Positions 6,442-54,848 of a stretch of 64,000 bases of DNA are shown here, in pieces (the stretch's first letter is position 1; every line of letters starts with the position of its first letter). Source of the DNA: Elusimicrobiota bacterium. Its GTDB lineage: Bacteria; Elusimicrobiota; Elusimicrobia; 2-02-FULL-39-32. Below the pieces are notes generated by a model that saw nothing but the letters and a program-made list of their open reading frames with translations, ran no database searches and was not told where the DNA came from. Location of the stretch: contig JACPBF010000001.1 of assembly GCA_016180425.1 (NCBI GenBank), forward strand, positions 140,744 through 204,743, written 5' to 3'. The position numbers and the translations under genes are program-made.

Positions 6442-9400
6442 ATGAGCAAATTTTTATTAAAAAAGAAATCTATTGCTTTTTATAAGATAAAGCTGATTAG
6501 TTTATTTTTTATAGCTTTTATTTTTTTTATTTTTCAACCAAAATCAGCTCTTTCAGCCCCGCAAAATGACAATTTTGTTAATGCTTCCACCATGACCCAT
6601 ACCAGCACCACAACTGCTGGGGGATTAAAATATAATTTTACTCACTCCACTGCTACACTAGACGCATCCACAGAAACTACTACCTCTGAACCTATCCCAT
6701 CTTGCGATTACGGCATTTCCGGAAATTTTAAAAGTATTTGGTACAAATACTTATCAACAGCTGCCATGTCAGCTACAGCCGATACCTTTGGTTCAAGTTT
6801 TGATACAGTCTTACAATCTTATAAAGCAGGCAGCCCAGACAATGATATTACAAAACTTACTCAAGATACCTGCAACGACGATTTTGTGGCGACCAATCTA
6901 CAATCCCAAATTCAATTTAACCTTTCAAAAGGCGTTACTTACTATTTTCAAATCACATCTAAAGGAAATAGCGGATCTGGTGGAACCACTGTTTTTAGCA
7001 GCACATTTAGTCTTAGAAATGTGGATGAAACAGTCCCAACTGTATCCATCAGAGAACCCTATGAAGGAACATTCCCTACTTTGTCCAGTCTGCTTGTCAT
7101 CTCAGGCACATCCACAGATAATGCTGGTGTAAATTCTGTAGAACTAACCATCTCCAGTGGCGGCACAAATGGTCAAGGAACAGGCAGCAGTTATTGGAGC
7201 GGCGCAACCTGGGGTTCTACGGTTAGCGTCAATAGTTTTCTAAAAAATTATGGTTCAAGCTCCACGCTTTGGGATTACACCACTTTGCCTCAATGGGTCA
7301 ATGGAACCACTTACTATATTCGAGCAACCGCGATTGACTCATCTAACAACAGTTCTACTGTGAACCTTAGCTCATTTTCATTTTTCGCGCCAACCGTAAC
7401 AAATGACGATTATTCTAATAGCAATGTAACTGTAATTGATTCTTTAAATTTTACAAGCCAATCCACTACCACAGCAGCAAATTTTGCCATTCAAAAAACT
7501 CCTTCCTGTGAGTATGGGGCTGGAAACAGAGATGTCTGGTTTCGCCATGTTTCCACAACCACAAAAGGTGTAGAAGTGAATACCAACAATTCTGATTTCA
7601 ATACGATTCTCACTGTTTGGAAAAGCACTGGTGGAACTGACCCAGTCCCAGGCGCAAATGCAACAGAAGTTGGTTGTAACCACCCCTATCATACAAATGC
7701 CACAGTAAAATTTAGCATGGAAAATGGAGCAACCTATTATGTTCAAGTAATGTCTGATTATGGTTCTGGAGGAATTCTGCGATTTCAATTTAAAGAACTG
7801 GCTGGAGATAACTCTGCGCCAGATCCTGTAACAAATCTAACTGCAGCTGCGGATATAGAATATGGTGCAGTAAAACTTACATGGACTTCTCCGGGAGATG
7901 ACGCCAGAGATGGCACAGCCACATCCTATGATATCCGTTTCTCTACAAGTGAACTAATTAATAATGATTTAAATTATAGCACCGCTGTAAAAATCACAAA
8001 CTCCCCAACTTTGGTAGGAACACCGCCCAATGATGCCCTAACAGTGCCGCAAGTCGCATATACGGTCCAAACACAATTAATTAAAAATCTTACTCAAAAT
8101 ACCACTGTTTGGTTTGCAATGAAAACAGTAGATGATGTTTTCAATCTTAGCGCTTTATCTAATGGAGCAACTATTTTTGTTCCTGGTTCAGCTATAAACT
8201 CTTCCAATGATAATTCTGTAAATGCAACAACTATTACTGCCATCCCTTTCTCTAATGAGATTATCACTACAAATATCAACAGTTTCGCGGAAAAAGCCCC
8301 CACATGTAATACAACTAAATTTACAACTATACAGACCTCTTACGATGTATGGTATCGGTTCCTTTCTACGGCAACGCGAAATGTTACAGTCAACACCTTT
8401 AATTCAAGTTTTGATACGATCCTGCAAGTCTGGAGAGGAAGCGAACCCATTGTAGTTGGACAACCCATTGATTGTAATGATGATGCAAGCAGTTCAATTT
8501 TGCAATCTAAAGTATTTGTTCCATTATCTGCTGGCACAACTTACTTTTTTCAAATCCTTGGAGCAAACAACGCCAAAGGCACATTAAGATTTCAATTAAG
8601 CGATCCTGACAGCGCAAAACCTTCTCAAATCAATGATCTAACTGCTACACCCGGAGGAGCATCTGATCCAATAGGATCTGTTAATCTAACATGGACAGAA
8701 CCTGCAGACGATGGGAGTGATGCTCTAAGCGGCTCAATCACTAAATACCATATAAGATACTCATCCACCACTGGGATCACAACCTCAAACTGGTCTAACG
8801 CGTTAAGCTCATCAGGAATTGTGCTGGATATAGAAGCTAACCCAGTAAAACAGGTTCCTCCTTCTCCTACAACGGTTGGAGCCAACAGATCTTATCAGAT
8901 TAAAAATCTAACTGCTGGGGTGACTTATTGGTTCTCGGTAAGAGCGCAAGATGATGCTGGCAATCTTGGAGACCCTTCTAAAAGTCCTTTTACCTCTGCG
9001 AAACCCTTCACTGCTCAAGCAGGGGATGGACAAGGCACAGTTCAAATTTTTGATGTCAGCAATCTTACCCAGTTAACCAGTGTTCCAATTAGTTCACTTA
9101 CAACTATAAATCTTCATTTTACAGTAGGAGCCTCTTCCATGACTGACGGGGCTAAAATCTCTTTTCGTATTCCAGATTTTTGGTCCAAACCAACGTTGAC
9201 CAATCAAGGGGACAACGGTTTTGTAAATGCTAGCACCATTACCCCAACCGCGCAATTAAAAAACCTATCTTTAAGTATAGATCCAAATGATAATCGAGTG
9301 ATCATTGCCAGCGTAACTACGAATGGAAAATTTAATTCTGGGGACGTCTTAAATTTTAAATATAAAGGTCTCACTGCTCCATCCACAAAATCTGGGGTTC

Positions 9401-12400
9401 AATTTGCAATTAAATCCCAAGCCTCTAACAATGGAGTACTGACATCTATTTTAGTTCAACCTTCTATAAATATCACAGCAGGCAATGCTACAAATGTTGG
9501 ATTTCCTCTTGGTTCATCCAACATAACCATAGTTTTAAGCAGCGGCCAATCTTCCCCGCCTCTATTCTTAGAGCCCATGGACGCCTCAGCTCAACCAACC
9601 ACAGCGCATAAAGATCTTAAAATCAGGATATTTACTCTTCATAAGGATACAAATAGTTATACCTATGCTTATGACAATACAGGACAGATTTCAAGAGACA
9701 ATTTTACAACAGTCCTAGCTTCTGCTACAATTTCAACTTCTGCCTTCAAAGCCACTCAAGCTCCAAACTATTTCTATAGTCTTACAAACACTAATTTTGC
9801 AACTTATTATGCCTTGACTATTCCAAATGGATCCAGAGGTGAAAATATATATTATAAAACTAATACCATAGGAGAGAATGCTCTTTGGTTAGAATGGAAC
9901 GATGATTTTGATAAAGGTGCAAGTACCAACACTACTTTTCAATCCATAAAAATTCGCGCTGACTCATTTGGATTTAATAATTTTCAAGTAGTTCCTGCCA
10001 CTATGACCCCTGATGGGGATGGAATTGATGACTTTGCCACAATTCAATTTACACCTTCAAATAACGAAACTTATTGGAGAGTTCGAATTGGAACAGACCC
10101 AATCCTCTCTCAACTTTCTCAAATTCCTATCACAATCTCCAGTATTACCCCTATGTTTGAGTTCTGGAATTTTGGACAGCCTCAAGGATTAAGCTGGTAT
10201 GGCAATGACTATCTAGGCAGCATTGTGCAAAGTTCAACCAGTTCAGGCACAAATAGCACTTATGTGGTCCGATTAGAAGATGCCTCTGGAGGAAACATTT
10301 CTACAACAACGATCGGAGTACAGTCTAATTATTTGGATGTATTTGTAACTACAGGAAACTCTGGCTGCACCAGTTGTGTTCCACTTGGTCTTAGCGGAGC
10401 TCTTGTAGAAGCTAATGGTCAGAGCGGAAAAGGTTTTGTCTATAGATCACAAAAAACTGGAAGCGACGGCAAAACAAGGATTTGGGGCTTAAAATCTGGC
10501 GCTGCTTATAGTCTTAAGGCAAATTATTTTGATCCAACTACTTACAAAATTTTTGACGGCAATCGTGCGAATCAAACAGCAGGAAATCCTCCAACTTCCG
10601 CAAGCACCATTACCTTTAGCCCGCCCATTCAAATTAGAGTACATGCAACTATTCCACAAACTGCTGTGGAAGCAAACTATGACAACTGGGGATTTATAAA
10701 TGTTGTGAATAATTCCAATGGATTCCCATCTGGTTTTGGATCCCTTCGATTTTCAGCAGGCTCTCAAGAATCTGACAGCGGTTACACTAACACTGGAGTC
10801 AGCACCTGGACAGCGATCACTGTTCCGCCTAGCGGAACCTATAAAGTACGGGCTGAACTTAGAGGCTTTAGCTCCACTGAAACCATTGTGACTGCAGGAG
10901 ATAGCGGCACTACAGACATTAATTTCACCTTTACTAAAAAACCAAGAGTTTTTGGTTATGTTGTTCTCCCATCCACCCAACAGTTTGGCACATGGGTCTC
11001 GGTTGAAGGAACTAAATCCGGGGATAAATTCCCAACCTCTTGGGGTGGCGCTTTTATTCAAGGTATAAACAGTTTTAGAGAAGCATCCACAACAGGAGCT
11101 TTTGTATTGGATTTAGATACTGGAACCTACACAATTAGAGCGCGCGCTTTTGGAATTGGAACAGTTTCTTCAGCCTCAGTCCCTGTGGGAGCGAATGGAG
11201 TAGGGTCCTTAATTTCCGGCGATCTTTTCCGAGGAGATGCAGTAATCCAAAATGGCTTGACCTTGGCATTCAGCACAACGATTGCGCAAGGGATCAGCGG
11301 CGCCATTAGCGTGGAAGGGGACACTTCAAGAATTCCCGGCATAGTCAATAGTTCTTTTACTCTTTACATTAATGCTTTTAGTCCAGTTAATTACTCCTAT
11401 AACTCAACTCAATTCCAGCTTCTTGGAAAAGAAGGAGATAGCTCTATAACAAGCGGTAACTACAGTATTAAAGGTGTTGAGGATGGAATCTACAATGTTC
11501 ATACTTATTTACAAGGATTTGAGTCAGACCCTCCAGGCCCAAAAACTGTCACTGTTACAAATGGGGTGGGCACTCGGGACCTAAAACTTAAACGTTATGG
11601 AGGGAAAATTGCCTCAGTTATAACTATTCCAAACCAAGACTATGAAAATGTTTCCTTAACAATAGAGGGGCCTGGTGTCTCCAGCACAAGCGCAAGTATA
11701 TCTCAATCCACAGTTACCAGTCCAAACATTGGAACTGGTTTTTATAGAGTGGAAGTTAACTACAAAACTACTAATCAATTTAAGAGTCAGATGGTGAATG
11801 TGATCAATGGACAAACCTCTACTGTTACTTTTAACCTTGTAGCCACAACTTTTACTGTTAAAGGCACAGTCAAGGTACAACCTTTTAAATTTGGACAAAC
11901 CTCTTCCAATTCTGGAGGAGTAGAAATTAATACAGTTAGCGATCTGGTTACCAAACTAGGATATGAAAATATCAATATTGGTACAGGTAGTGGTAGTTTT
12001 CCTATTGCCAGAATTGAAGCCTATCCTAAGGATGGAACCAACTTTGAAGAAGGATTAAGAAACTTTGCGGAAATAGATTCTGGTCTTGGCGGAGGAGGGA
12101 GCTTTGGTCTGGATAGAGGAAAAAAATCTGGTTTTGGCCAAGTGCTAAGCGCAGCTATCACTTCCAGTGGAACTTGGGCTATTAATCTGCCTGCAGGAGT
12201 TTATATTTTAAGACATCCTGTAAATTTAGACCCTACTGCGCAATATTACAATAACACTAGTTTTAATCAAGGTTATGAACCAAACACGAGCGATGTTGCC
12301 AATGAAGAAAAAGTGATTCTTATTACTGAAAATGGAACCGTACAAGTCATTAGCCCTGTTAACGGCAACTTAGAATTTACCTATTCCGCAGGATCCTCTA

Positions 12401-15400
12401 TCAGCGGAAAAATAGATGTGCCTCAAGGAGCCTCTGCCGATACAGTTTTTCTCTTTCTTAAAGTTTTAAATGACAGGAATGAGATTGTCAATTGGCAGCC
12501 AGTTTATCTAAATGGAACCACGGCTAATTATTCAGTGTCTAATCTCTCTAACGGCATCTATACGCTTATACTAGAGGAGATGATGAGCTACAACTTCCTT
12601 ACTGGAAAAATAGAAAGAAAATTCGTAAGCAAACCATTAAGGGTTACAGTTTCTGGATCCAATGTAACCAACCAAAATTTTCAGTTGTTTAAACCAGCTG
12701 CAATTGAAGGTAAACTAGCTGTAGTCCGCATTTCAACAGATGGAACTAAATCTACAGAACTAATTACATCTAACAATAACTCCCTCTTACCTAGCAATTT
12801 TAGAATTAGCGCTTTTGCTCCTGGAGCAGGATCAGGCAGTTCAGCGGATGGAGCAGGAGGCGCAGGTCAAGGAGGCTTTGGTGGCGGCAGCAGTTTTATT
12901 AATATTGATTCAACTAAAGGAACTTTCAAAATTTCTAACCTTATTCCAGATACGGAATATACTGTTTCATTTAAACAAGACCAGTTCTCCATGGCAACTT
13001 CAGCTGAAAGTTTGCTGGGACAGGGAAAACTAAATTTAGTGGCTGAAGAAAAATCTGGAATCTCAGTCCCGCCAGGACAAACATTTGATCTTGGAACAGT
13101 AGAACTTTTAGTAGGTATTTCCATGACAGGATCAGTGGTTGATTCCTCTACCCAACCCATTGCCAATGTTAGAATTGTGGCGCGTCCAGCAGGAGTTGGA
13201 ACCAAAGATTCCCGTGACGCTGAGGTTAGAGCATTCACTGATGAACGCGGATCTTATACCCTTTCCGGATTAAGCTATGATTTACGCTATTACAACGTTA
13301 CTTTTGCGGAACGAGACCGCTCTGACGCGTTCCTATTTAATCCAGGCAATTTTGAAACTCGCTACGCTGAATTAGTAAAAAAAAGCGTGGATGTGAGAAA
13401 ATCTTCTGTGCCATTAAACGTTACGCTTGAACTGGGTCCAGCATCTATTATAGGAAAGGTGGTTACCTCAGATGGGGGAGCTCTAAAAAATCCATTTGGA
13501 GAGGGAGGCAAAAGTGTTGGATTCCCAATCGCGGTAATTGTGGCTAATAAGCAGGGAAATATCCCAACTAAAAACCCCATAGGAGATATTGAAATTCCAA
13601 CCAATCTAGATGGCACCTTTACTCTGGATCGTTTAGCTGCTGGAACCTATGACATTTATGCTTTTAGTTCAGGCTATGGAGTAATGAAAATTTCTCAAGC
13701 TGTAACTAATTCACAGGTAAATGTGGGCAATATCACACTATCAGTGGGTCTTTCTCTTTCCGGAAAAATTTTAAAGCCCGATGGTTCTAAACCCAATACC
13801 AATGAAGTGGATGTTCTGGCAGCAGCCAATGATGATTTTTCAGAACTAACCATCGCATCTGTACAGACCAATGATCAAACCAGCACTGTGGATGGTTATA
13901 CCTTGGCTGGACTAAAATCAGGCACAACCTATAACCTAATTATCTTTACTCCTGAAGATGAAACTTTTATTCCTTCTGAACGATATCCATCCAACGGCAA
14001 TGGAGTATCTATAACCACGGATGTTGCAAATTTTAATTTAACCTATACCCAAACTAAACCAGAAGTTTTCTTAAAAGGAACAAAAACAGGAACTAAGGTA
14101 GGCGGAATTGATCAATATAAATTTGAATTTGAATGTACCCAAACGCTTAGAAACAGCACTTTACAGGAAAAATCTGACGACTATTGGAAAAGCGTTGTTT
14201 CTATTTTCTCTAGCGTAGGCGGAGATGGAACCATTTCTCAAGATCCAGAAGATTCTAATCCTATCAGCCCAAACAGAAAAAAACTAAATATTTTATATCT
14301 TCCCACAGCTGATACAAAACGGGTCACATTTAGATTCACATCCCCAACCTCTGGACTACAGCCCGGAACAACCTCAAACTTTACAGTAGATTCTTTCTTT
14401 GAATTTCCTTTGGGTCTGGAAGGTCAAGAATTCGCAAGATATAACCATATGCGCGGGGTAAGAGCGGAAATTAGAGGGGATCTCTCGCAAGTAGTTATTC
14501 CAGGAGGCGCTCTTAAAAAATCAGATGGCGCTAATTTAGAGGTATCTTCCAATGTAAGTGTAGGCATGCAAAAAGCGAATGATGTCGCTACAGCCACAAC
14601 CTCTGTAAAAAGTGGAGCGCCATCCTTAAGAGGGTCTCCATCCCTTGCAAATGGAACTCCTTCAGAAGAAAGCAACCTGCCATCTCATCTCTTCAAAGCT
14701 ATACAAGCGATGAAGCAGATACAATCTGAGATTGCGTCTAAAAAATCACAAAGCTCAAACTCAAATAATTTAAAAGGCGCCCCAATGGGAGCTGCCTCAA
14801 ACGCATCCGAAGTGGCAAATAATGTGATGGGATCTTTTTATGATTTCTTCCTGCCTTCTGGCATACGCAGGAATTTAGCCAAAAACGCAACTTTAAAACT
14901 TTCTTATAGCTCAGGTGTTACAAGCGCAGATTCAATTAATGTCTATTTTTACAATGACACAAGCTCCACAGTTACAACCACAAGCGGAGAATCAGTGCCT
15001 CCTGGATCTTATGGGTTAGAAAGTTCTAACAAGTCTGTAGATCTAACTAACAAAACAATTACTGTAGATGTGAACCACTTTACAGTCTATGTGGTGGTGA
15101 ATGCGACTTCAACAGTGCTAGGCGCTTCCTCTGTGGTTGCGTTATCTTCAACTACAAGCGCAACTCCAGACACAACAGCGTTCAATGGATCAGAAATTGA
15201 AATCTTTAATTTCCCTAATCCTTTCAACGCAACTGTGAGAGGCTTTAACTTTACAGGCACAAAAACTAATGGCCAACAAACATTAAGAGCAACTGGCGCC
15301 ACAGCTTTGCGTTATGCTCTGCCTAAAAATTTAGGAGACACTCCAGTTGAAGTCACTCTTTATATTTATGATGTTTCTGGAGATTTAGTAAAAACACTAA

Positions 15401-15555
15401 ACTTCGGAAAACAAGCTACAGGCAAATATCATTATGATGATTGGGACGGCAAAAATGAAGATGGCCAGACTGTAGCCAGCGGCGTTTATATAGGAAGATT
15501 AAAAATTGAAGGTTCTACCAGAACCAAATTCTTAAAAATGGCAGTCATAAAATGA
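6442..15555 (+). CDS. Giant secreted multidomain protein with PPC-like, Fn3 and FlgD-Ig-like C-terminal domains
   Basis: A 3037-residue exported protein. It begins with a basic stretch and a hydrophobic signal segment (about residues 15-40, ending ALSA-PQ). Three related PPC-like modules follow at about 40-192, 320-452 and 585-720; each starts ND(N/Y), contains a W(Y/F)(K/R) strand, SSFDT(V/I)L and a TYYFQ segment. Fn3-like domains lie between and after them (about 457-590 and 726-852; DLTA...VxLTWT...YxIRYS). The long middle is a series of beta-rich carboxypeptidase-regulatory-like repeats with a Gly/Ser-rich stretch near 2128-2152. The end (about 2920-3037) has FPNPF, then VTLYIYDVSGDLVKTL, a W-D-G-(K)-N-(E)-D-G motif and SGVYIGRLKI, the FlgD-Ig/type IX-like sorting end. 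No enzyme motif was recognised. It is likely a surface or adhesion protein. Its stop overlaps the PorV-like start (ATGA). Confidence 0.85.
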   Translation: MSKFLLKKKSIAFYKIKLISLFFIAFIFFIFQPKSALSAPQNDNFVNASTMTHTSTTTAGGLKYNFTHSTATLDASTETTTSEPIPSCDYGISGNFKSIWYKYLSTAAMSATADTFGSSFDTVLQSYKAGSPDNDITKLTQDTCNDDFVATNLQSQIQFNLSKGVTYYFQITSKGNSGSGGTTVFSSTFSLRNVDETVPTVSIREPYEGTFPTLSSLLVISGTSTDNAGVNSVELTISSGGTNGQGTGSSYWSGATWGSTVSVNSFLKNYGSSSTLWDYTTLPQWVNGTTYYIRATAIDSSNNSSTVNLSSFSFFAPTVTNDDYSNSNVTVIDSLNFTSQSTTTAANFAIQKTPSCEYGAGNRDVWFRHVSTTTKGVEVNTNNSDFNTILTVWKSTGGTDPVPGANATEVGCNHPYHTNATVKFSMENGATYYVQVMSDYGSGGILRFQFKELAGDNSAPDPVTNLTAAADIEYGAVKLTWTSPGDDARDGTATSYDIRFSTSELINNDLNYSTAVKITNSPTLVGTPPNDALTVPQVAYTVQTQLIKNLTQNTTVWFAMKTVDDVFNLSALSNGATIFVPGSAINSSNDNSVNATTITAIPFSNEIITTNINSFAEKAPTCNTTKFTTIQTSYDVWYRFLSTATRNVTVNTFNSSFDTILQVWRGSEPIVVGQPIDCNDDASSSILQSKVFVPLSAGTTYFFQILGANNAKGTLRFQLSDPDSAKPSQINDLTATPGGASDPIGSVNLTWTEPADDGSDALSGSITKYHIRYSSTTGITTSNWSNALSSSGIVLDIEANPVKQVPPSPTTVGANRSYQIKNLTAGVTYWFSVRAQDDAGNLGDPSKSPFTSAKPFTAQAGDGQGTVQIFDVSNLTQLTSVPISSLTTINLHFTVGASSMTDGAKISFRIPDFWSKPTLTNQGDNGFVNASTITPTAQLKNLSLSIDPNDNRVIIASVTTNGKFNSGDVLNFKYKGLTAPSTKSGVQFAIKSQASNNGVLTSILVQPSINITAGNATNVGFPLGSSNITIVLSSGQSSPPLFLEPMDASAQPTTAHKDLKIRIFTLHKDTNSYTYAYDNTGQISRDNFTTVLASATISTSAFKATQAPNYFYSLTNTNFATYYALTIPNGSRGENIYYKTNTIGENALWLEWNDDFDKGASTNTTFQSIKIRADSFGFNNFQVVPATMTPDGDGIDDFATIQFTPSNNETYWRVRIGTDPILSQLSQIPITISSITPMFEFWNFGQPQGLSWYGNDYLGSIVQSSTSSGTNSTYVVRLEDASGGNISTTTIGVQSNYLDVFVTTGNSGCTSCVPLGLSGALVEANGQSGKGFVYRSQKTGSDGKTRIWGLKSGAAYSLKANYFDPTTYKIFDGNRANQTAGNPPTSASTITFSPPIQIRVHATIPQTAVEANYDNWGFINVVNNSNGFPSGFGSLRFSAGSQESDSGYTNTGVSTWTAITVPPSGTYKVRAELRGFSSTETIVTAGDSGTTDINFTFTKKPRVFGYVVLPSTQQFGTWVSVEGTKSGDKFPTSWGGAFIQGINSFREASTTGAFVLDLDTGTYTIRARAFGIGTVSSASVPVGANGVGSLISGDLFRGDAVIQNGLTLAFSTTIAQGISGAISVEGDTSRIPGIVNSSFTLYINAFSPVNYSYNSTQFQLLGKEGDSSITSGNYSIKGVEDGIYNVHTYLQGFESDPPGPKTVTVTNGVGTRDLKLKRYGGKIASVITIPNQDYENVSLTIEGPGVSSTSASISQSTVTSPNIGTGFYRVEVNYKTTNQFKSQMVNVINGQTSTVTFNLVATTFTVKGTVKVQPFKFGQTSSNSGGVEINTVSDLVTKLGYENINIGTGSGSFPIARIEAYPKDGTNFEEGLRNFAEIDSGLGGGGSFGLDRGKKSGFGQVLSAAITSSGTWAINLPAGVYILRHPVNLDPTAQYYNNTSFNQGYEPNTSDVANEEKVILITENGTVQVISPVNGNLEFTYSAGSSISGKIDVPQGASADTVFLFLKVLNDRNEIVNWQPVYLNGTTANYSVSNLSNGIYTLILEEMMSYNFLTGKIERKFVSKPLRVTVSGSNVTNQNFQLFKPAAIEGKLAVVRISTDGTKSTELITSNNNSLLPSNFRISAFAPGAGSGSSADGAGGAGQGGFGGGSSFINIDSTKGTFKISNLIPDTEYTVSFKQDQFSMATSAESLLGQGKLNLVAEEKSGISVPPGQTFDLGTVELLVGISMTGSVVDSSTQPIANVRIVARPAGVGTKDSRDAEVRAFTDERGSYTLSGLSYDLRYYNVTFAERDRSDAFLFNPGNFETRYAELVKKSVDVRKSSVPLNVTLELGPASIIGKVVTSDGGALKNPFGEGGKSVGFPIAVIVANKQGNIPTKNPIGDIEIPTNLDGTFTLDRLAAGTYDIYAFSSGYGVMKISQAVTNSQVNVGNITLSVGLSLSGKILKPDGSKPNTNEVDVLAAANDDFSELTIASVQTNDQTSTVDGYTLAGLKSGTTYNLIIFTPEDETFIPSERYPSNGNGVSITTDVANFNLTYTQTKPEVFLKGTKTGTKVGGIDQYKFEFECTQTLRNSTLQEKSDDYWKSVVSIFSSVGGDGTISQDPEDSNPISPNRKKLNILYLPTADTKRVTFRFTSPTSGLQPGTTSNFTVDSFFEFPLGLEGQEFARYNHMRGVRAEIRGDLSQVVIPGGALKKSDGANLEVSSNVSVGMQKANDVATATTSVKSGAPSLRGSPSLANGTPSEESNLPSHLFKAIQAMKQIQSEIASKKSQSSNSNNLKGAPMGAASNASEVANNVMGSFYDFFLPSGIRRNLAKNATLKLSYSSGVTSADSINVYFYNDTSSTVTTTSGESVPPGSYGLESSNKSVDLTNKTITVDVNHFTVYVVVNATSTVLGASSVVALSSTTSATPDTTAFNGSEIEIFNFPNPFNATVRGFNFTGTKTNGQQTLRATGATALRYALPKNLGDTPVEVTLYIYDVSGDLVKTLNFGKQATGKYHYDDWDGKNEDGQTVASGVYIGRLKIEGSTRTKFLKMAVIK

Positions 15556-16526
15556 AAATAATAACTATACTTATACTTTTATTCTTCTCATCAAATACAT
15601 TTGCCGCTTTTAGCGCTAAATCTGCTGGCACGAGCGGCGCAGCATTTTTAAAAATAGGCGCTGGAGCCAGACCCCAAGCTTTGGGGGAAGCTTACACTGC
15701 TGTTGCGGATGATGCAAATGCAATTCATACCAATACCGCGGGGCTCGCCTTTCTCAAAAAAAATGAATTTGTGGCTATGAGAGCCCAGCTTTTCCAGGAT
15801 TTACAATATCACTTTTTTGCTTTTGCCCATCCTACAAAATCTTATGGAACCTTTGCTTTTGCTTTAAATAACCTTCTTATCTCTGACATAGAACGAAGAA
15901 CTGCTGATACCGATAATCCAGATTCTACCTTTTCCTCTAATGATTCTGCCTATACCCTTGCCTATGCCCAAAAATGGGATGATTCTCTTTCTTTTGGCGC
16001 TGGGTTTAAATATATTCGGCAAGTTCTTGCAGATGATGCTGCAAATTCCTATGGGATAGACTTAGGTTCACTCTATAAATTTAGCGAGATGCCTCTAGCA
16101 ATAGGATTTTCAGTACAGAATTTAGGATCAAAAGTAAAATTTAAAGATGAGTCAGATTCTCTACCCCTCACAATAAAATTAGGCACCAGCTATCGCCTAG
16201 GAAAAAATTGGAAGATCAGCGGTCAAAATGGAGAAGGAATAGAAAAGAAAGGACTTTTGCTTTCCATGGATGGAAATTTTCCAAGGGACAATGATCCTTC
16301 CTTAAGAGTTGGCTCAGAATTTACCAAAACCTGGTTAAAAGAGGATCTCTCCACCTCTATTCGAGCAGGTTATCAGACTGGAAGAAACCGCCAAATTGAA
16401 GGCACTGGGATTGGGGTAAGCGCAGGCACGGGAATAACATATAAATTCTTTTCCTTTGATTTTGCCTGGATGCCATTTGGCAATTTAGGCAACACTTTTA
16501 GATATTCAGTTAGACTGGAGTTTTAA
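15552..16526 (+). CDS. PorV/PorQ-like outer-membrane beta-barrel protein
   Basis: A 324-residue protein with a cleavable signal peptide (hydrophobic residues 3-18, ending TFAA-F). The mature N-terminus AGTSGAAFLKIGAGARPQAL followed by GEAYTAVADDANAIHTNTAGLAFL is the hallmark of the PorV/UPF0164 family of FadL-like barrels, and the protein ends with an aromatic residue (RLEF) as beta-barrel proteins do. In Bacteroidota, PorV is a shuttle for type IX secretion cargo. Here it overlaps the giant-protein gene by 4 bases and so is translated with it, which fits a dedicated partnership. Whether it truly serves a type IX-like system is inference; other T9SS core genes are not in the window. Confidence 0.82.
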   Translation: MKIITILILLFFSSNTFAAFSAKSAGTSGAAFLKIGAGARPQALGEAYTAVADDANAIHTNTAGLAFLKKNEFVAMRAQLFQDLQYHFFAFAHPTKSYGTFAFALNNLLISDIERRTADTDNPDSTFSSNDSAYTLAYAQKWDDSLSFGAGFKYIRQVLADDAANSYGIDLGSLYKFSEMPLAIGFSVQNLGSKVKFKDESDSLPLTIKLGTSYRLGKNWKISGQNGEGIEKKGLLLSMDGNFPRDNDPSLRVGSEFTKTWLKEDLSTSIRAGYQTGRNRQIEGTGIGVSAGTGITYKFFSFDFAWMPFGNLGNTFRYSVRLEF

Positions 16527-16690
16527 AACTATGTCCACACTTGAGTTTACCAATAAATTATTTCTTTTGGGGCTCACTGGGCTTGGCACTCGCATTCTGC
16601 CAAGCCCAGTGCATAGCGAGCCCGCAGGGGCGAGCGACCCCAAAAGAAATAATTTATTGGTAAACTCAATATATAAACATAGTTTTAAAA
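16521..16690 (+). repeat. Large palindromic element with nested hairpins at the FecR gene start
   Basis: Three nested inverted repeats: outer 13-base arms 16521-16533/16678-16690, middle 30-base arms 16543-16572/16638-16667, and an inner hairpin of 14-base arms 16575-16588/16598-16611. All are perfect. A smaller GCCC/GGGC stem lies near 16619-16631. Folded, it gives a stem with two hairpins at its tip. The interior (about 16573-16637) is strikingly GC-rich compared with the AT-rich flanks. The left end covers the stop of the PorV-like gene; the right end lies just before the FecR signal peptide. This looks like an inserted palindromic element. Confidence 0.9.
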
Positions 16691-18519
16691 AATTTATTAT
16701 TAGCTCTATAGTTTGCCTTTATTTTGGGCATGTTTCAGATGCGCTTGCGCGCCAAGCGATATTGATTAATTCATCAGGCAGTGTAGAAATTCAAGAACCA
16801 ACATCCGGCCTTTGGAAAAAAGCAAATAAAAAACAGGTTTTAAAGCAGGGAGAAAAAATTCGCACTGGAAAAAGTTCAAAAGCAATCCTAATCTTTGACG
16901 ATGGTTCAAAAACCATGCTTTCTGCAGATACGGTTCTCTTATTAAGCCAGTTAATAGCGCCTATCCAACTTTCACAAGAATCTGGCGCGACTCGCAACAA
17001 AGTAAAAAAAACAGGCAAGGGATTTATGCTGCAAACTCAAACTGCGGTCTGTTCAGTTAGAGGCACAGATTTTTCAGTAGGGGTTGGAGAGAATGGAACC
17101 ACTCAATTAGATGTATTTGAAGGGGTGGTCAATGGTTTAAAACTAGCTACTGGTGAAGATAAAGATGTGAGAGAAGGCGAATCTCTGATCTTTACAGAAA
17201 ATCCAACGCCGCTTGGCTCTCCTCAACCCATAGAGCCCTCTGGAGATGAATCCAGCATTAAACAGCTGGCTAGAAAAGAAGTTGGGTTAGACATGACTCG
17301 CGAAGAATTTCAAGCTGCTGTGGCAGAAGAGATGAAACTGGCAGAGTACCAAGAAGGAAAATCCATGATAGATGTCAATGGCATTAGGGTTCGGATCGAA
17401 GAATATATTTTAAGAAAACCTAAAGATGTAACTCTAGCTGACCGAGAAAAAGCATTTAAATTTGTGGTCTTAAACTTAAGAGAAACCAGAATTGATTTTT
17501 TTACCTACAAAGGTATTTTTAATAAAAAATTGCCAGAAGATCTCTCAGTAGCTTTAAGAAATGTAACTGGAAAACATATTGGCAGTGAACCAGAATACTA
17601 CTTAAGATCTTATGAAATGACCCAATCTAATTTTACAGATGCAATTAAAGACATGGCTGATGGAGGGCATTTGGTAGAGGTGCGATATAATGCGGATGGA
17701 AGTTTTACGCTTATTCCACATACTGTAAATTCAGATGGCACAGCAGGAAACATAGCAGCAGGAGACAGCAATACTACCATAACTCCAAATTCTAACGGTC
17801 TAGTCAGTGGTAAAGTCTATGATCCAATTGCAGATATTTACAAACAGGAGGGAGCTTCTTTGGATGGAGTATATGATTCTGCTAACGATACATTTAAACT
17901 GCTTAAAAAAGGGGAAACCCTTTGGAGAACTGTATTTAACCGTTATGCGCATCTACTTGGCCCATCTAAGGACCTTGCATCTTTAACCCTTGACAATATC
18001 CCTTCTAGCACTCTCACACAGCCATGGTTCCAAACCTATACTCCTAAAACAGGTGTTACCAATATTGCTTCTTTAGATCAAACCGCGACTTTAACCTCAG
18101 ATGGCACAGTCTCTTCCAGAGGAAAAACTCTTACCCTTTATACAGACCAAAATATTGGAGATGGAAGTTTCAAATATTTAAATGGCCATTACGCGTTTGA
18201 CTCCTACTTTCCAGACGCGTCTAATCCAGATTCACCTACTTTTAGCGATAAAATTCATCAGCGTTTAATCACTTATTACCCTAATTCATCCAACACAAAA
18301 GATATTCCCTATGAACAATATGATACCTATATTATTTCTGATGAAGGTAAAATCGCTAAAATTTCCGCATTTGCAAATGTTACCTCAGGCAAAGCATTTA
18401 AAGAAGAGCTGATTAAATGGAACTACCAACAAATCACAAAATCTTCTGCCTATGGAGACCGCACCATAGACATTGTGGTTGAACCTAAAATCCTGATCCG
18501 TTCAGGCCTTATAAAATAA
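16531..18519 (+). CDS. Secreted FecR-domain protein
   Basis: The open frame from ATG 16531 gives 662 residues, but the first ~49 are encoded by the palindromic element (16521-16690). A normal signal peptide (HSFKKFIISSIVCLYFGHVSDALA, in two parts HSFKKFIISSIV and CLYFGHVSDALA) follows, so the ancestral start was probably near 16657 (in-frame TTG) or was displaced by the insertion. Residues about 74-200 form a FecR domain: ILINSSGSVEIQ, GEKIRTGKSSKAILIFDDGS, TAVCSVRGTDFSVGV, LDVFEGVV. The rest, about 200-662, matches nothing I recognise. Standalone secreted FecR proteins are common in surface operons. It is the third gene of the giant-protein operon and converges with trxB. Confidence 0.8.
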   Translation: MSTLEFTNKLFLLGLTGLGTRILPSPVHSEPAGASDPKRNNLLVNSIYKHSFKKFIISSIVCLYFGHVSDALARQAILINSSGSVEIQEPTSGLWKKANKKQVLKQGEKIRTGKSSKAILIFDDGSKTMLSADTVLLLSQLIAPIQLSQESGATRNKVKKTGKGFMLQTQTAVCSVRGTDFSVGVGENGTTQLDVFEGVVNGLKLATGEDKDVREGESLIFTENPTPLGSPQPIEPSGDESSIKQLARKEVGLDMTREEFQAAVAEEMKLAEYQEGKSMIDVNGIRVRIEEYILRKPKDVTLADREKAFKFVVLNLRETRIDFFTYKGIFNKKLPEDLSVALRNVTGKHIGSEPEYYLRSYEMTQSNFTDAIKDMADGGHLVEVRYNADGSFTLIPHTVNSDGTAGNIAAGDSNTTITPNSNGLVSGKVYDPIADIYKQEGASLDGVYDSANDTFKLLKKGETLWRTVFNRYAHLLGPSKDLASLTLDNIPSSTLTQPWFQTYTPKTGVTNIASLDQTATLTSDGTVSSRGKTLTLYTDQNIGDGSFKYLNGHYAFDSYFPDASNPDSPTFSDKIHQRLITYYPNSSNTKDIPYEQYDTYIISDEGKIAKISAFANVTSGKAFKEELIKWNYQQITKSSAYGDRTIDIVVEPKILIRSGLIK

Positions 18520-36880: not shown

Positions 36881-36939
36881 TTTAAAATTTTCCAAATAAT
36901 AATAAAAACATTCAAAAAATCAGGTTCTATTTTTTTATC

Positions 36940-36968
36940 TTGACAATAGAGGAATCTCTTGATATATT
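36940..36968 (+). promoter_or_regulatory. Promoter of the radical SAM/sugar gene cluster
   Basis: TTGACA (36940-36945), 17-base spacer, TATATT (36963-36968), a near-consensus promoter. Predicted leader about 79 bases; it holds TAAGAT...ATCTTA (a small stem) and the half-palindrome TATTCGGGTT just before the ribosome site AAAGGA of the ATG at 37054. Confidence 0.75.
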
Positions 36969-37053
36969 TTATTAAACTCAAATATTGCATTAGGGTATTA
37001 GACCTAAGATGAATGCCATAATCTTAATCTAGTATTCGGGTTAAAGGAAAAAT

Positions 37054-41821: not shown

Positions 41822-42421
41822 ATGAACGACTCAAACACGCTCAATTATTTTAAAGGTTTTGGAGAATTGCTTCTTAAAATTGAAGTGACTAATCTAAAGG
41901 GTGAAAAAATGATGTTGGAAGAAGGCATGGAAGAAGCGATTGCAAAAATCGTAAAACATACTAACAACAAAAAAAATAAAATTATATTTATAGGAAATGG
42001 TGGAAGCGCTGCGATCGCAAGCCATCAATCTGTTGACTATTGGAAAAATGGAAAGATGCGAGCCATTGCATTTAACGATACCAGCCTGTTAACTTGTATT
42101 GGCAATGATTATGGGTATCCTTATGTTTTTGAAAAACCAATTGAGATGTTTGCTGATCCAAATGATTTAGTGATCGCCATCTCCAGCTCTGGTAAATCAG
42201 ACAATATTTTAAATGGGTCAAAAATGGCCAAGGCTAAAAATTGTTTTTTAATCACCATGTCTGGATTTAAAAATGATAATCCTTTGCGATCTTTAGGAGA
42301 TTTAAACTTTTATGTTCCAGCCCCAACAGGCGCTTATGGATTTGTGGAAATTGCCCATCTCACCTTATGCCATGCTTTTTGCGATCTAATCATTGATCGG
42401 AAATTAATTAGTTCATTCTAA
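41822..42421 (+). CDS. SIS-domain phosphosugar isomerase, GmhA-like
   Basis: A 199-residue single SIS-domain protein. The phosphosugar-binding loop is GNGGSAAIASHQSVDYW (about residue 58 on) and the second loop ISSSGKSDNILNG; NDYGYPYVFEKPIEMF also matches GmhA (sedoheptulose 7-phosphate isomerase), which makes D-glycero-heptose 7-phosphate. It has AIASH where many GmhA proteins have ADAQH. It directly follows the HldE-like fusion, with a GGGGG ribosome site (14-base gap), completing three typical steps of heptose activation. Its last codons, including the stop, form the left arm of a 25-base perfect palindrome. Confidence 0.83.
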   Translation: MNDSNTLNYFKGFGELLLKIEVTNLKGEKMMLEEGMEEAIAKIVKHTNNKKNKIIFIGNGGSAAIASHQSVDYWKNGKMRAIAFNDTSLLTCIGNDYGYPYVFEKPIEMFADPNDLVIAISSSGKSDNILNGSKMAKAKNCFLITMSGFKNDNPLRSLGDLNFYVPAPTGAYGFVEIAHLTLCHAFCDLIIDRKLISSF

Positions 42422-42479
42422 TAAAGTCATTTCTGCTCAAGGTTTTAGCTTTTGGACTTTATTAGAATGAACTAATTAA
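42404..42479 (+). repeat. Perfect 25-base inverted repeat over the stop of the SIS gene
   Basis: Arms 42404-42428 and 42455-42479 are exact inverse complements around a 26-base loop. The left arm holds the last codons and the TAA of the SIS gene. No U-run follows, so it is not a standard terminator. Right after the right arm comes CCCGAATAATTAGG, continuing the AACCCGAAT half-site seen elsewhere. Confidence 0.9.
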
Positions 42480-52099: not shown

Positions 52100-52157
52100 G
52101 GAAATGAGAACCGAAACTAAAAATATGAAATTTCTGTCAGCTCTAATAAAGGTGAGG

Positions 52158-52203: not shown

Positions 52204-54684
52204 ATGTCTAATCGTTTTACCGAACGCGCCCAAAGAGTCATCCTCATAGCACAAGAAGAAGCTAAACGTCTGAACCATGATTATGTGGGAACAGAACATA
52301 TTCTTCTTGGTCTTATTGCTTTAGGAGAAGGCGTGGCTGCCCAGGTTCTTTCTAATTTAGGAGTAGATCTAAGAAGAGTCCGCTCTGAAATTGAAAAAAT
52401 CGTAGGCACTGGCGACAATGTAATGCTTTTAGGAGAAATCCCTTTTACGCCCAGAGCTAAAAAAGTTTTAGAACTTGCAGTAGAAGAAGCTCAAAGCATG
52501 GCCCACAACTATGTGGGAACGGAACATCTTTTATTAGGACTGATTAGAGAAGAAGAGGGCGTGGCTGCCCGTGTCCTAGAAAATTTAGGCTGCAGACTGG
52601 ATGTGGTGAGAGAAGAAGTCATCTCTCTTTTAGGTGAAACACCCAGACCCCATCCCACACAAACCCGAGCTCCCGCTAAATCAAAAACTCCTACTTTGGA
52701 TGAATTTGGCAGGGATTTGACCCAGCTGGCTAGAGAAACAAAATTAGACCCTGTGATTGGCAGAGGAGATGAGATTGAACGTCTAATCCAAATTCTTTCC
52801 AGAAGAACTAAAAATAATCCTGTTTTAATTGGAGATCCTGGAGTAGGAAAAACTGCGATTGTAGAAGGTCTAGCTCAGAAAATCGCCTCCAATGATGTCC
52901 CAGAAATTCTGGGAGGCAAAAGGGTGATGACTCTAGATTTAGCCGCAGTTGTGGCAGGAACAAAATATCGCGGTGAATTTGAACAAAGACTTAAAAACAT
53001 TATGGAAGAGATCCGCAGAGCTAAAAATTCCATTATTCTTTTTGTAGATGAACTTCATACCGTGATTGGAGCTGGAGCAGCAGAAGGGGCCATTGATGCT
53101 TCCAATATGCTTAAACCCGCGTTGGCTAGAGGCGAATTACAATGTATTGGAGCCACCACATTAGATGAATATAGAAAATATATTGAACACGACGCTGCTT
53201 TAGAAAGAAGATTTCAGCCCATTCATGTAGATCCGCCATCCATTGAAGAGACGGTTCAAATCCTGCATGGATTAAAGGAAAGATATGAGACGCACCACAA
53301 AGTAAAATACGCTGATAACGCTTTAGAAGCAGCTGCAGAGCTTGCGGAACGTTACATTACAGATCGTTATTTGCCGGATAAAGCGATTGATTTAATTGAT
53401 GAGGCTGGATCTCGAGCCAGAATGCAATCCACCCAACTTCCGCAAGAATTAAAAGAAAAAGAAACTTTAATTGAAACTATTTCCAAAGATAAGGATCAAG
53501 CAATCGCGTCTCAGGAATATGAAAAGGCAGCTAGACAAAGAGACAAGGAAAAAGAACTGCGCAAAGCTCTGGAAGAAGCAAAGAAAAAATGGAGAGAAAA
53601 AAGAGAGACGCAAGTGCCTTCCATTACAGAAGAAGAGATCGCCACTGTTGTTTCCAAATGGACTGGAATTCCAGTGAATCGCCTAACAGAAAAAGAATCA
53701 GAAAAACTGATTCATATGGAGGATGAAGTCCATAAAAGGATCATTGGGCAGAATGAGGCGGTCTCAATTGTTTCTCAAGCGATTCGGCGTTCAAGAACCG
53801 GGCTTAAAAATCCAAAAAAACCAATTGGATCTTTTATTTTTCTAGGGCCTTCCGGAGTGGGCAAAACAGAATTAGCCAGAGCCTTGGCAGAATTCATGTT
53901 TGGCGATGAAGAAGCCCTGATCCGAATTGACATGTCTGAGTATATGGAAAAATTTTCAGTTTCCCGTCTCATTGGAGCTCCTCCAGGTTATGTTGGATTT
54001 GAAGAAGGGGGACAGCTGACAGAAGCGGTTCGAAGAAAACCATATTCCGTAGTTCTTTTAGATGAAATTGAAAAAGCTCATCCAGATGTATTCAATATCT
54101 TACTGCAAATGATGGATGACGGCATTTTAAGCGATAATTTAGGCCATAAAGTTAACTTTAAAAATACAGTTATTATCATGACTTCCAATGTGGGAGCTCG
54201 GATGATATCTCAAGGAAAATCTTTAGGATTCCTTATTCAGGAAGAAACGACTGCGAAAGACTACTCTGCCATGAAAGATACTGTGATGGAAGAGGTTAAA
54301 AAAGCCTTTAATCCTGAGTTTATCAATCGCTTGGATGAAATCATTGTGTTTCATCCTTTAAATAAAGAGGATATAACTAAAATTTTAGATCTCATGCTCT
54401 CCAGAGTAAATGCAAAACTAGAATCCCAAGGGTATAAGGCTGATTTTTCCCAAGCTTGCAAGACTTTTATTTTAGAAAATGGTTTTGATCCAAAAAATGG
54501 CGCAAGACCCTTAGCCAGAACCATTCAACGCTTCATTGAAGATCCTTTGGCTGAAGAAATCCTGGCTAAAAAAATTCATGCTGGTTCCTCTGAGCACCCT
54601 ACTTTAATACAAATATCCTTTGATCCGGAACTTAAAAAAATCACATTTTCCTCAGCGCCCCTGCCAAAATCCATAAAAAATTAA
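52204..54684 (+). CDS. clpC: ATP-dependent Clp protease ATPase subunit ClpC
   Basis: An 826-residue Hsp100 protein. Two Clp-N repeats fill residues about 1-145 ([27 protein letters not shown] then [10 protein letters not shown]), then AAA-1 with Walker A GDPGVGKT (about 211), a UVR-containing middle region ([19 protein letters not shown], about 440), and AAA-2 with GPSGVGKT (about 549). Short ClpC-like length and the UVR motif separate it from ClpB and ClpA. It unfolds substrates for ClpP; no ClpP, McsA/McsB or CtsR gene is in the window. Its stop codon is covered by the left arm of the 168-base palindrome. Confidence 0.96.
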
Positions 54685-54848
54685 CCCGAATCATTCAGTT
54701 GCTTATGTGAACCGAGACGAAAAAGATGGCCATTTTTTCGAAACAAAAAAGTTCAAGCATACTTTTAAGTATGTGCGAACTTTTTTGTGAAGGAAAAATG
54801 GCCATATTTTTCGTCGAATTCCATAAGCAACTGAATGATTCGGGTTAA
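54681..54848 (+). repeat. 168-base near-perfect palindromic element between clpC and tamB
   Basis: Outer arms of 27 bases (54681-54707 and 54822-54848) are exact inverse complements. Inside, about 45 further bases on each side pair with a few mismatches, and a central CATACTT/AAGTATG hairpin closes the structure at about 54759-54774. The left end covers the clpC TAA; the ends read TTAACCCGAAT/ATTCGGGTTAA. It encodes no obvious protein. It looks like a MITE-like or REP-like element, though it may also stop transcription. Confidence 0.92.

Follow-up and report, generated by a model that had tools for sequence, protein, structure and literature searches.

The nested palindrome at the start of the FecR gene is very probably the product of a recent insertion: a short, non-autonomous mobile palindromic element of an Elusimicrobiota-wide family appears to have landed right after the FecR start codon, to be read in frame and to have been kept matched and flipped by template switching since then. 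In the proposed course of events, a core of ~65 nt with two hairpins and long inverted arms would have inserted directly after the start codon, as empty sites indicate. The frame remains open, which would place 48 extra residues before the signal peptide. This leader would probably be tolerated, signal peptidase cutting it off together with the signal peptide. After the insertion, template switching between the arms during replication would keep these identical and invert the core.

Structure of the palindrome and its insertion site

The sequence analysed (the window) is a stretch of 64,000 nt from the genome of an Elusimicrobiota bacterium (G000; 98.5% complete). A repeat search of the window shows that 16521-16690 is built from three inverted repeats nested in one another, all perfect, whose arms measure 14, 32 and 14 nt. 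An earlier reading made from the sequence alone had recognised the three repeats, although with arms of 13, 30 and 14 nt. The unit measures 129 nt across the ends of the main arms and 170 nt including the outer arm, and other copies are similar in length. Its predicted RNA fold has an energy of -97.8 kcal/mol compared with a mean of -38.1 for shuffled sequences (z = -15.9; 0 of 200 shuffles as low). The core has a G+C content of 0.70, against 0.18 for the arms and 0.40 for the flanks, in agreement with the earlier description of an interior richer in G+C than its surroundings. In each copy the ~65-nt core consists of two hairpins and, with the closing arms, forms a T-shaped three-way junction. 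P1 is the long closing stem, the P2 loop is conserved across copies (ACTCGCATTCTG, ACTTTCTTACGG and similar) and P3 reads GCGAGCCC..GGGCGAGCG. Two-sided compensating changes are found in 20 of the 41 predicted pairs. The window contains a single copy of the element, with the following features:

15552-16526, + strand: PorV-like gene upstream of FecR, whose end lies within the outer arm
16521-16690, no strand: whole nested palindrome (repeat search and fold)
16521-16534, + strand: left outer arm, which is host sequence and holds the stop codon of the upstream gene
16531-16533, + strand: native FecR start codon ATG, kept
16531-18519, + strand: FecR-domain ORF of 662 aa, with the element as residues 2-51
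16534-16683, no strand: segment missing from the sister species, where TTGCTA or similar fills the gap between ATG and TTTAAAAAA
16541-16572, + strand: left main arm of P1, 32 nt, perfect
16569-16641, + strand: G+C-rich mobile core (70% GC), common to other loci and genomes
16575-16588/16598-16611: inner 14-nt inverted repeat (repeat search)
16575-16611, + strand: hairpin P2, a 14-bp stem with the conserved loop motif ACTCGCATTCTG
16616-16636, + strand: hairpin P3, GCGAGCCCGCAGGGGCGAGCG (fold and alignment)
16638-16669, - strand: right main arm of P1, 32 nt, perfect
16657-16659, + strand: in-frame TTG codon (residue 43), proposed earlier as an alternative start
16677-16690, - strand: right outer arm, in which TTTTAAAA is host-like and CATAG mirrors the left flank
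16684-16749, + strand: signal peptide FKKFIISSIVCLYFGHVSDALA, assigned by eye (AxA-type site)

Just upstream of the PorV-like gene and FecR, the window encodes a 3037-aa protein (6442-15555) with carboxypeptidase-regulatory, fn3 and type IX secretion-like C-terminal domains.

The ATG at 16531, 4 nt past the stop codon of the upstream gene, is followed immediately by the insertion. In a sister species of the same genus (G001; Elusimicrobia bacterium RIFCSPLOWO2_02_FULL_39_32) the site is empty: it reads TTTTAAAAATATG TTGCTA TTTAAAAAA, and FecR begins MLLFKKFIISS. In G000 the initial M is followed by 48 additional codons and then by FKKFIISS. The proteins, which are 97% identical, are 614 aa long in G001 and 662 aa here. 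This gives 48 added residues, close to the ~49 of the earlier reading, which had also noted correctly that the open frame crosses the element (16531-18519 is unbroken across the palindrome). FecR of G003, G005, G006 and G007 carries no insert either, the start codon being followed directly by the signal peptide. Judged by these comparisons with G001 and the four outgroup genes, all without the element, the insertion is the derived state. The natural start had been thought to be missing; it is ATG 16531 itself, since G001 and the four outgroups use the same start.

For the copy at C18:238843, too, the G001 site is empty (TTTGAG-CATA-CTCAAA). Neither of these two sites shows a direct target-site duplication. 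At both, 4-5 nt of the left host bases reappear to the right of the insertion as a mirror image (CTATG/CATAG and AATA/TATT). Scored for palindromic character, the empty sites reach 7 and 6, values exceeded at 1.8-4.8% and 6-14% of background positions. They are weakly palindromic, but two sites are too few for targeting of host palindromes to be more than suggestive, and too few to claim an inverted target duplication either.

Dispersal of the element family

A 186-nt query retrieves a second copy of the core from G000 at C18:10038-10130 with 93% identity. Using covariance models built from six copies (R1) and from 23 copies (R2), we identified at least six clear copies in this genome (FecR, C18:10038, C18:238843, C25:12856, C25:21807 and C25:66256), together with a shortened additional copy at C32:9475. 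Copies are also present in G001 and in three more genera of family f1 (G003, G004 and G005), and a scan of 199 genomes of the phylum Elusimicrobiota revealed weaker relatives in families f16 and f27. The sequence-only reading had proposed such a search of the genome and its relatives, and the core is clearly not restricted to FecR: within genomes it recurs at unrelated loci with 74-95% identity, and it is shared across genera. Viral contigs gave no match to the element.

The arms behave differently in different groups. In G003, eight cores average 95% identity; arm positions 14-39 score 0.54 and 0.51, compared with 0.55 for shuffled arms. Being no more alike than shuffled sequence, the outer arms (beyond 13 nt) are specific to the locus in that genus and form no part of what moves. 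Copies in G000 partly share the inner ~24 nt of the arm. Copies from f16, unlike those of f1, have arms in common. Three loci of this family (L103, L104 and L107) are distant core relatives with shared arms, and their host genomes hold several Y1_Tnp genes.

All genomes used were assembled from metagenomes, and palindromes can be put together wrongly in such assemblies. Two G001 contigs, C8 and C9 (L132 and L134), both end within the element palindrome; because the assembly breaks at these elements, copy counts are minimum values. Another G001 copy (L078, C22:33091) occurs at a synteny break, the flanks mapping to G000 contigs C35 and C41 with no element there. Several other matches were discarded. 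Those outside Elusimicrobia (Actinobacteria, Verrucomicrobia, Omnitrophota and others), found by an exact-pattern scan of genome contigs, are without the element architecture. An 88% match to the arm at C1:18379 is within an unrelated gene and was judged to be due to chance, as were the matches of the long hairpin in Rfam, all to sub-threshold microRNA families.

In-frame reading, core inversion and arm matching

Three G000 genes carry the element between the start codon and the signal peptide: FecR and the genes at C18:10038 and C32:9475. The latter two contain no ATG, GTG or TTG between core and signal peptide, so at least part of the element is translated if these proteins are exported from ordinary starts. 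The G000 core at C32:9475 has lost 24 nt; this number is divisible by three, and the frame continues uninterrupted. Outside the insert, dN/dS (omega) is 0.11 for FecR (G000 versus G001), which indicates purifying selection; the other values are 0.15 and 0.21. In G004 the element lies in frame in CobB, in the linker between CbiA (ending at residue 192) and GATase_3 (starting at 280), and this insert is missing in four relatives. In G005, two copies are located inside one DEAD-box ORF. Other copies are intergenic. The same CobB linker in G005 (L165) carries a different in-frame repeat (FPRKRESR...DSRFRGND).

The element peptide GLTGLGTRILxSPVHxEPAGASxP is found in two genes, and copies that are flipped or diverged encode different peptides. 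To judge from the open frame, the element is probably read as 48 extra amino acids ahead of the FecR signal peptide. As a counterpoint, a hairpin of -98 kcal/mol just behind the start codon should hinder initiation.

Five loci are shared between G000 and G001. At four of these (C18:10038, C25:66256, C25:12856 and C25:21807) the core points the opposite way in the two species when the flanks are held fixed; at C32:9475 it does not. A position-by-position comparison of the arms covered three shared loci, selected because their arms align gap-free (the G001 arms of C18:10038 and C25:21807 are less perfect). Seven changes are present in both arms. At C25:12856 another four seem to affect one arm, but each is an exact exchange of left and right carried along by the inversion, which places the inversion breakpoints within the arms. 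Only two changes at the three loci are truly one-sided, both in the outermost part of C25:66256. When a polymerase switches template between inverted repeats, the arms are known to become homogenised and the spacer inverted (PMC8604942), and we infer from this published work that such switching would explain both the flipping and the arm matching seen in the two-species comparison.

An unrelated 25-nt perfect palindrome at 42404-42479, overlapping a gene end, also has arms with matched changes in G001, and a different spacer. The process therefore acts on G000 palindromes generally, and arm matching is no proof of element function.

Alternative explanations and known systems

It is possible, but we think unlikely, that only the T-shaped core and ~13-24 nt of arm move. 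The core would then land in the middle of palindromes of the host, terminator hairpins among them, or would build long arms after landing, by snap-back copying of one host flank onto the other; the arms would thus be made by the locus and the core would flip freely. The hairpin ends of parvoviruses, which flip and flop, provide an analogy. If true, core-only movement would be a kind of transposition that duplicates its target in inverted and not in direct orientation. The simple form of this idea, with all arm sequence an inverted copy of the local flank, was rejected: the FecR arm is missing from the empty site in G001, and the inner arms are alike between copies. For the outer arms it may still apply. 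A palindrome formed locally, either as a transcription terminator or as a quasipalindrome grown by template switching, and not mobile at all, is very unlikely in view of the core identity at unrelated loci and across genera and of the two clean empty sites in G001, even though other long G000 palindromes (for example, 42404-42479) also have arm-matched changes and some outer arms resemble host terminators. For the core, its sharing rules out local formation; for the outer arms it may hold. Least credible of all is an assembly artefact. The two contigs ending inside an element would fit one, but related cores are present in independent assemblies from other genera, and the copy at C18:10038 is found in two species at one and the same place, its sequence having diverged.

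The earlier reading had offered two further possibilities. One is a functional leader RNA, in which translation would start at TTG 16657 and the hairpin would control FecR expression. We consider this improbable: the native ATG is kept, the insert is missing in all relatives compared, and the core is followed by no ATG, GTG or TTG in the two further genes arranged in this way. The TTG is in frame and would yield a clean signal peptide behind a very stable hairpin, so that the proposal is feasible for FecR but is not general. The other is a REP/BIME-type unit moved by a RAYT (TnpA_REP) transposase, to which we give little credence. In REP/BIME units the hairpin has a GTAG or CGTC tag at its foot (PMC3733652), and inspection by eye of the 23-copy alignment showed no conserved tag of this kind. 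No Y1 transposase (PF01797; RAYT) is found in G000, G001, G004 or G005, all of which carry the element. Y1_Tnp genes do occur in some f1 genomes and in f16 and f27, the families with distant core relatives, and the element is, like REP/BIME units, palindromic and mostly between genes; no element was present within 1.5 kb of the seven genes examined from f16 and f27 or of four from G003, G006 and G007. An autonomous parent with matching ends was not seen, the transposase search covering PF01797 only. Since neither a transposase partner nor a direct target-site duplication was found, the evidence for mobility is that insertions are polymorphic and that unrelated loci have near-identical cores.

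The closest parallel in the way the element works is with the Rickettsia palindromic elements and the protein-coding palindromes of Wolbachia, stem-loops of ~105-150 bp found in frame in unrelated proteins (PMC10969869, PMC2229807). These are likewise long stem-loops, non-autonomous, both intergenic and in frame in unrelated genes, and tolerated by the protein. The likeness, already suspected in the sequence-only reading, is borne out by the dispersed copies, the empty sites and the in-frame genes, and the element agrees with the Rickettsia type in length, stem-loop form and in-frame and intergenic locations. What distinguishes it is its unrelated phylum, the T-shaped two-hairpin core, the largely locus-specific arms, the flipping of the core between sister species and the presence, in one genome, of three copies between start codon and signal peptide. 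With bacterial MITEs it shares small size, the lack of its own gene, terminal inverted repeats and a mostly intergenic location, but it differs in that the two empty sites show no direct target duplication, no transposase was found and the outer arms are not common to the copies. It resembles REP, BIME and REPIN sequences in being a palindromic repeat between genes; it is several times longer than a REP, lacks a conserved tag and occurs in this form in genomes without a RAYT. Arm homogenisation and spacer inversion are both known from template switching at inverted repeats (PMC8604942, PMC8794818), although the published yeast spacer inversions involve a few bases and here a structured core of ~65 nt is inverted.

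A literature search, with most subscription journals outside its reach, found no reports of such elements in Elusimicrobiota. Protein-coding palindromes have been described before in Rickettsia and Wolbachia; the present family is independent and has clean empty sites, which suggests that bacteria repeatedly acquire palindromic insertions in frame, and that these are readily tolerated when they land between the start codon and the signal peptide. Arm matching and core inversion are recorded naturally in the G000/G001 pair, in which the role of template switching in hairpin upkeep can be tested directly.

The window also includes other palindromes and indels. Directly after the stop codon of a gene, a nested palindrome at 54681-54848 (27-nt perfect outer arms; 49-nt inner arms, 84%) is missing in G001; it ends in TTAACCCGAATNATT and belongs to a different family. 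The motif TTAACCYGAATNATT occurs five times with one mismatch allowed (0.16 expected), at 42476, 54681, 54848, 60370 and 60405, all palindrome ends, and probably marks where members of a second family of mobile palindromes end. Indels relative to G001 at 36881-37048 and 52106-52153 comprise a G000-specific stretch ending in TATTCGGGTTAA and a G001-specific stretch of ~168 nt with repeated hairpins (CCTAAAGGACGAGAGTG).
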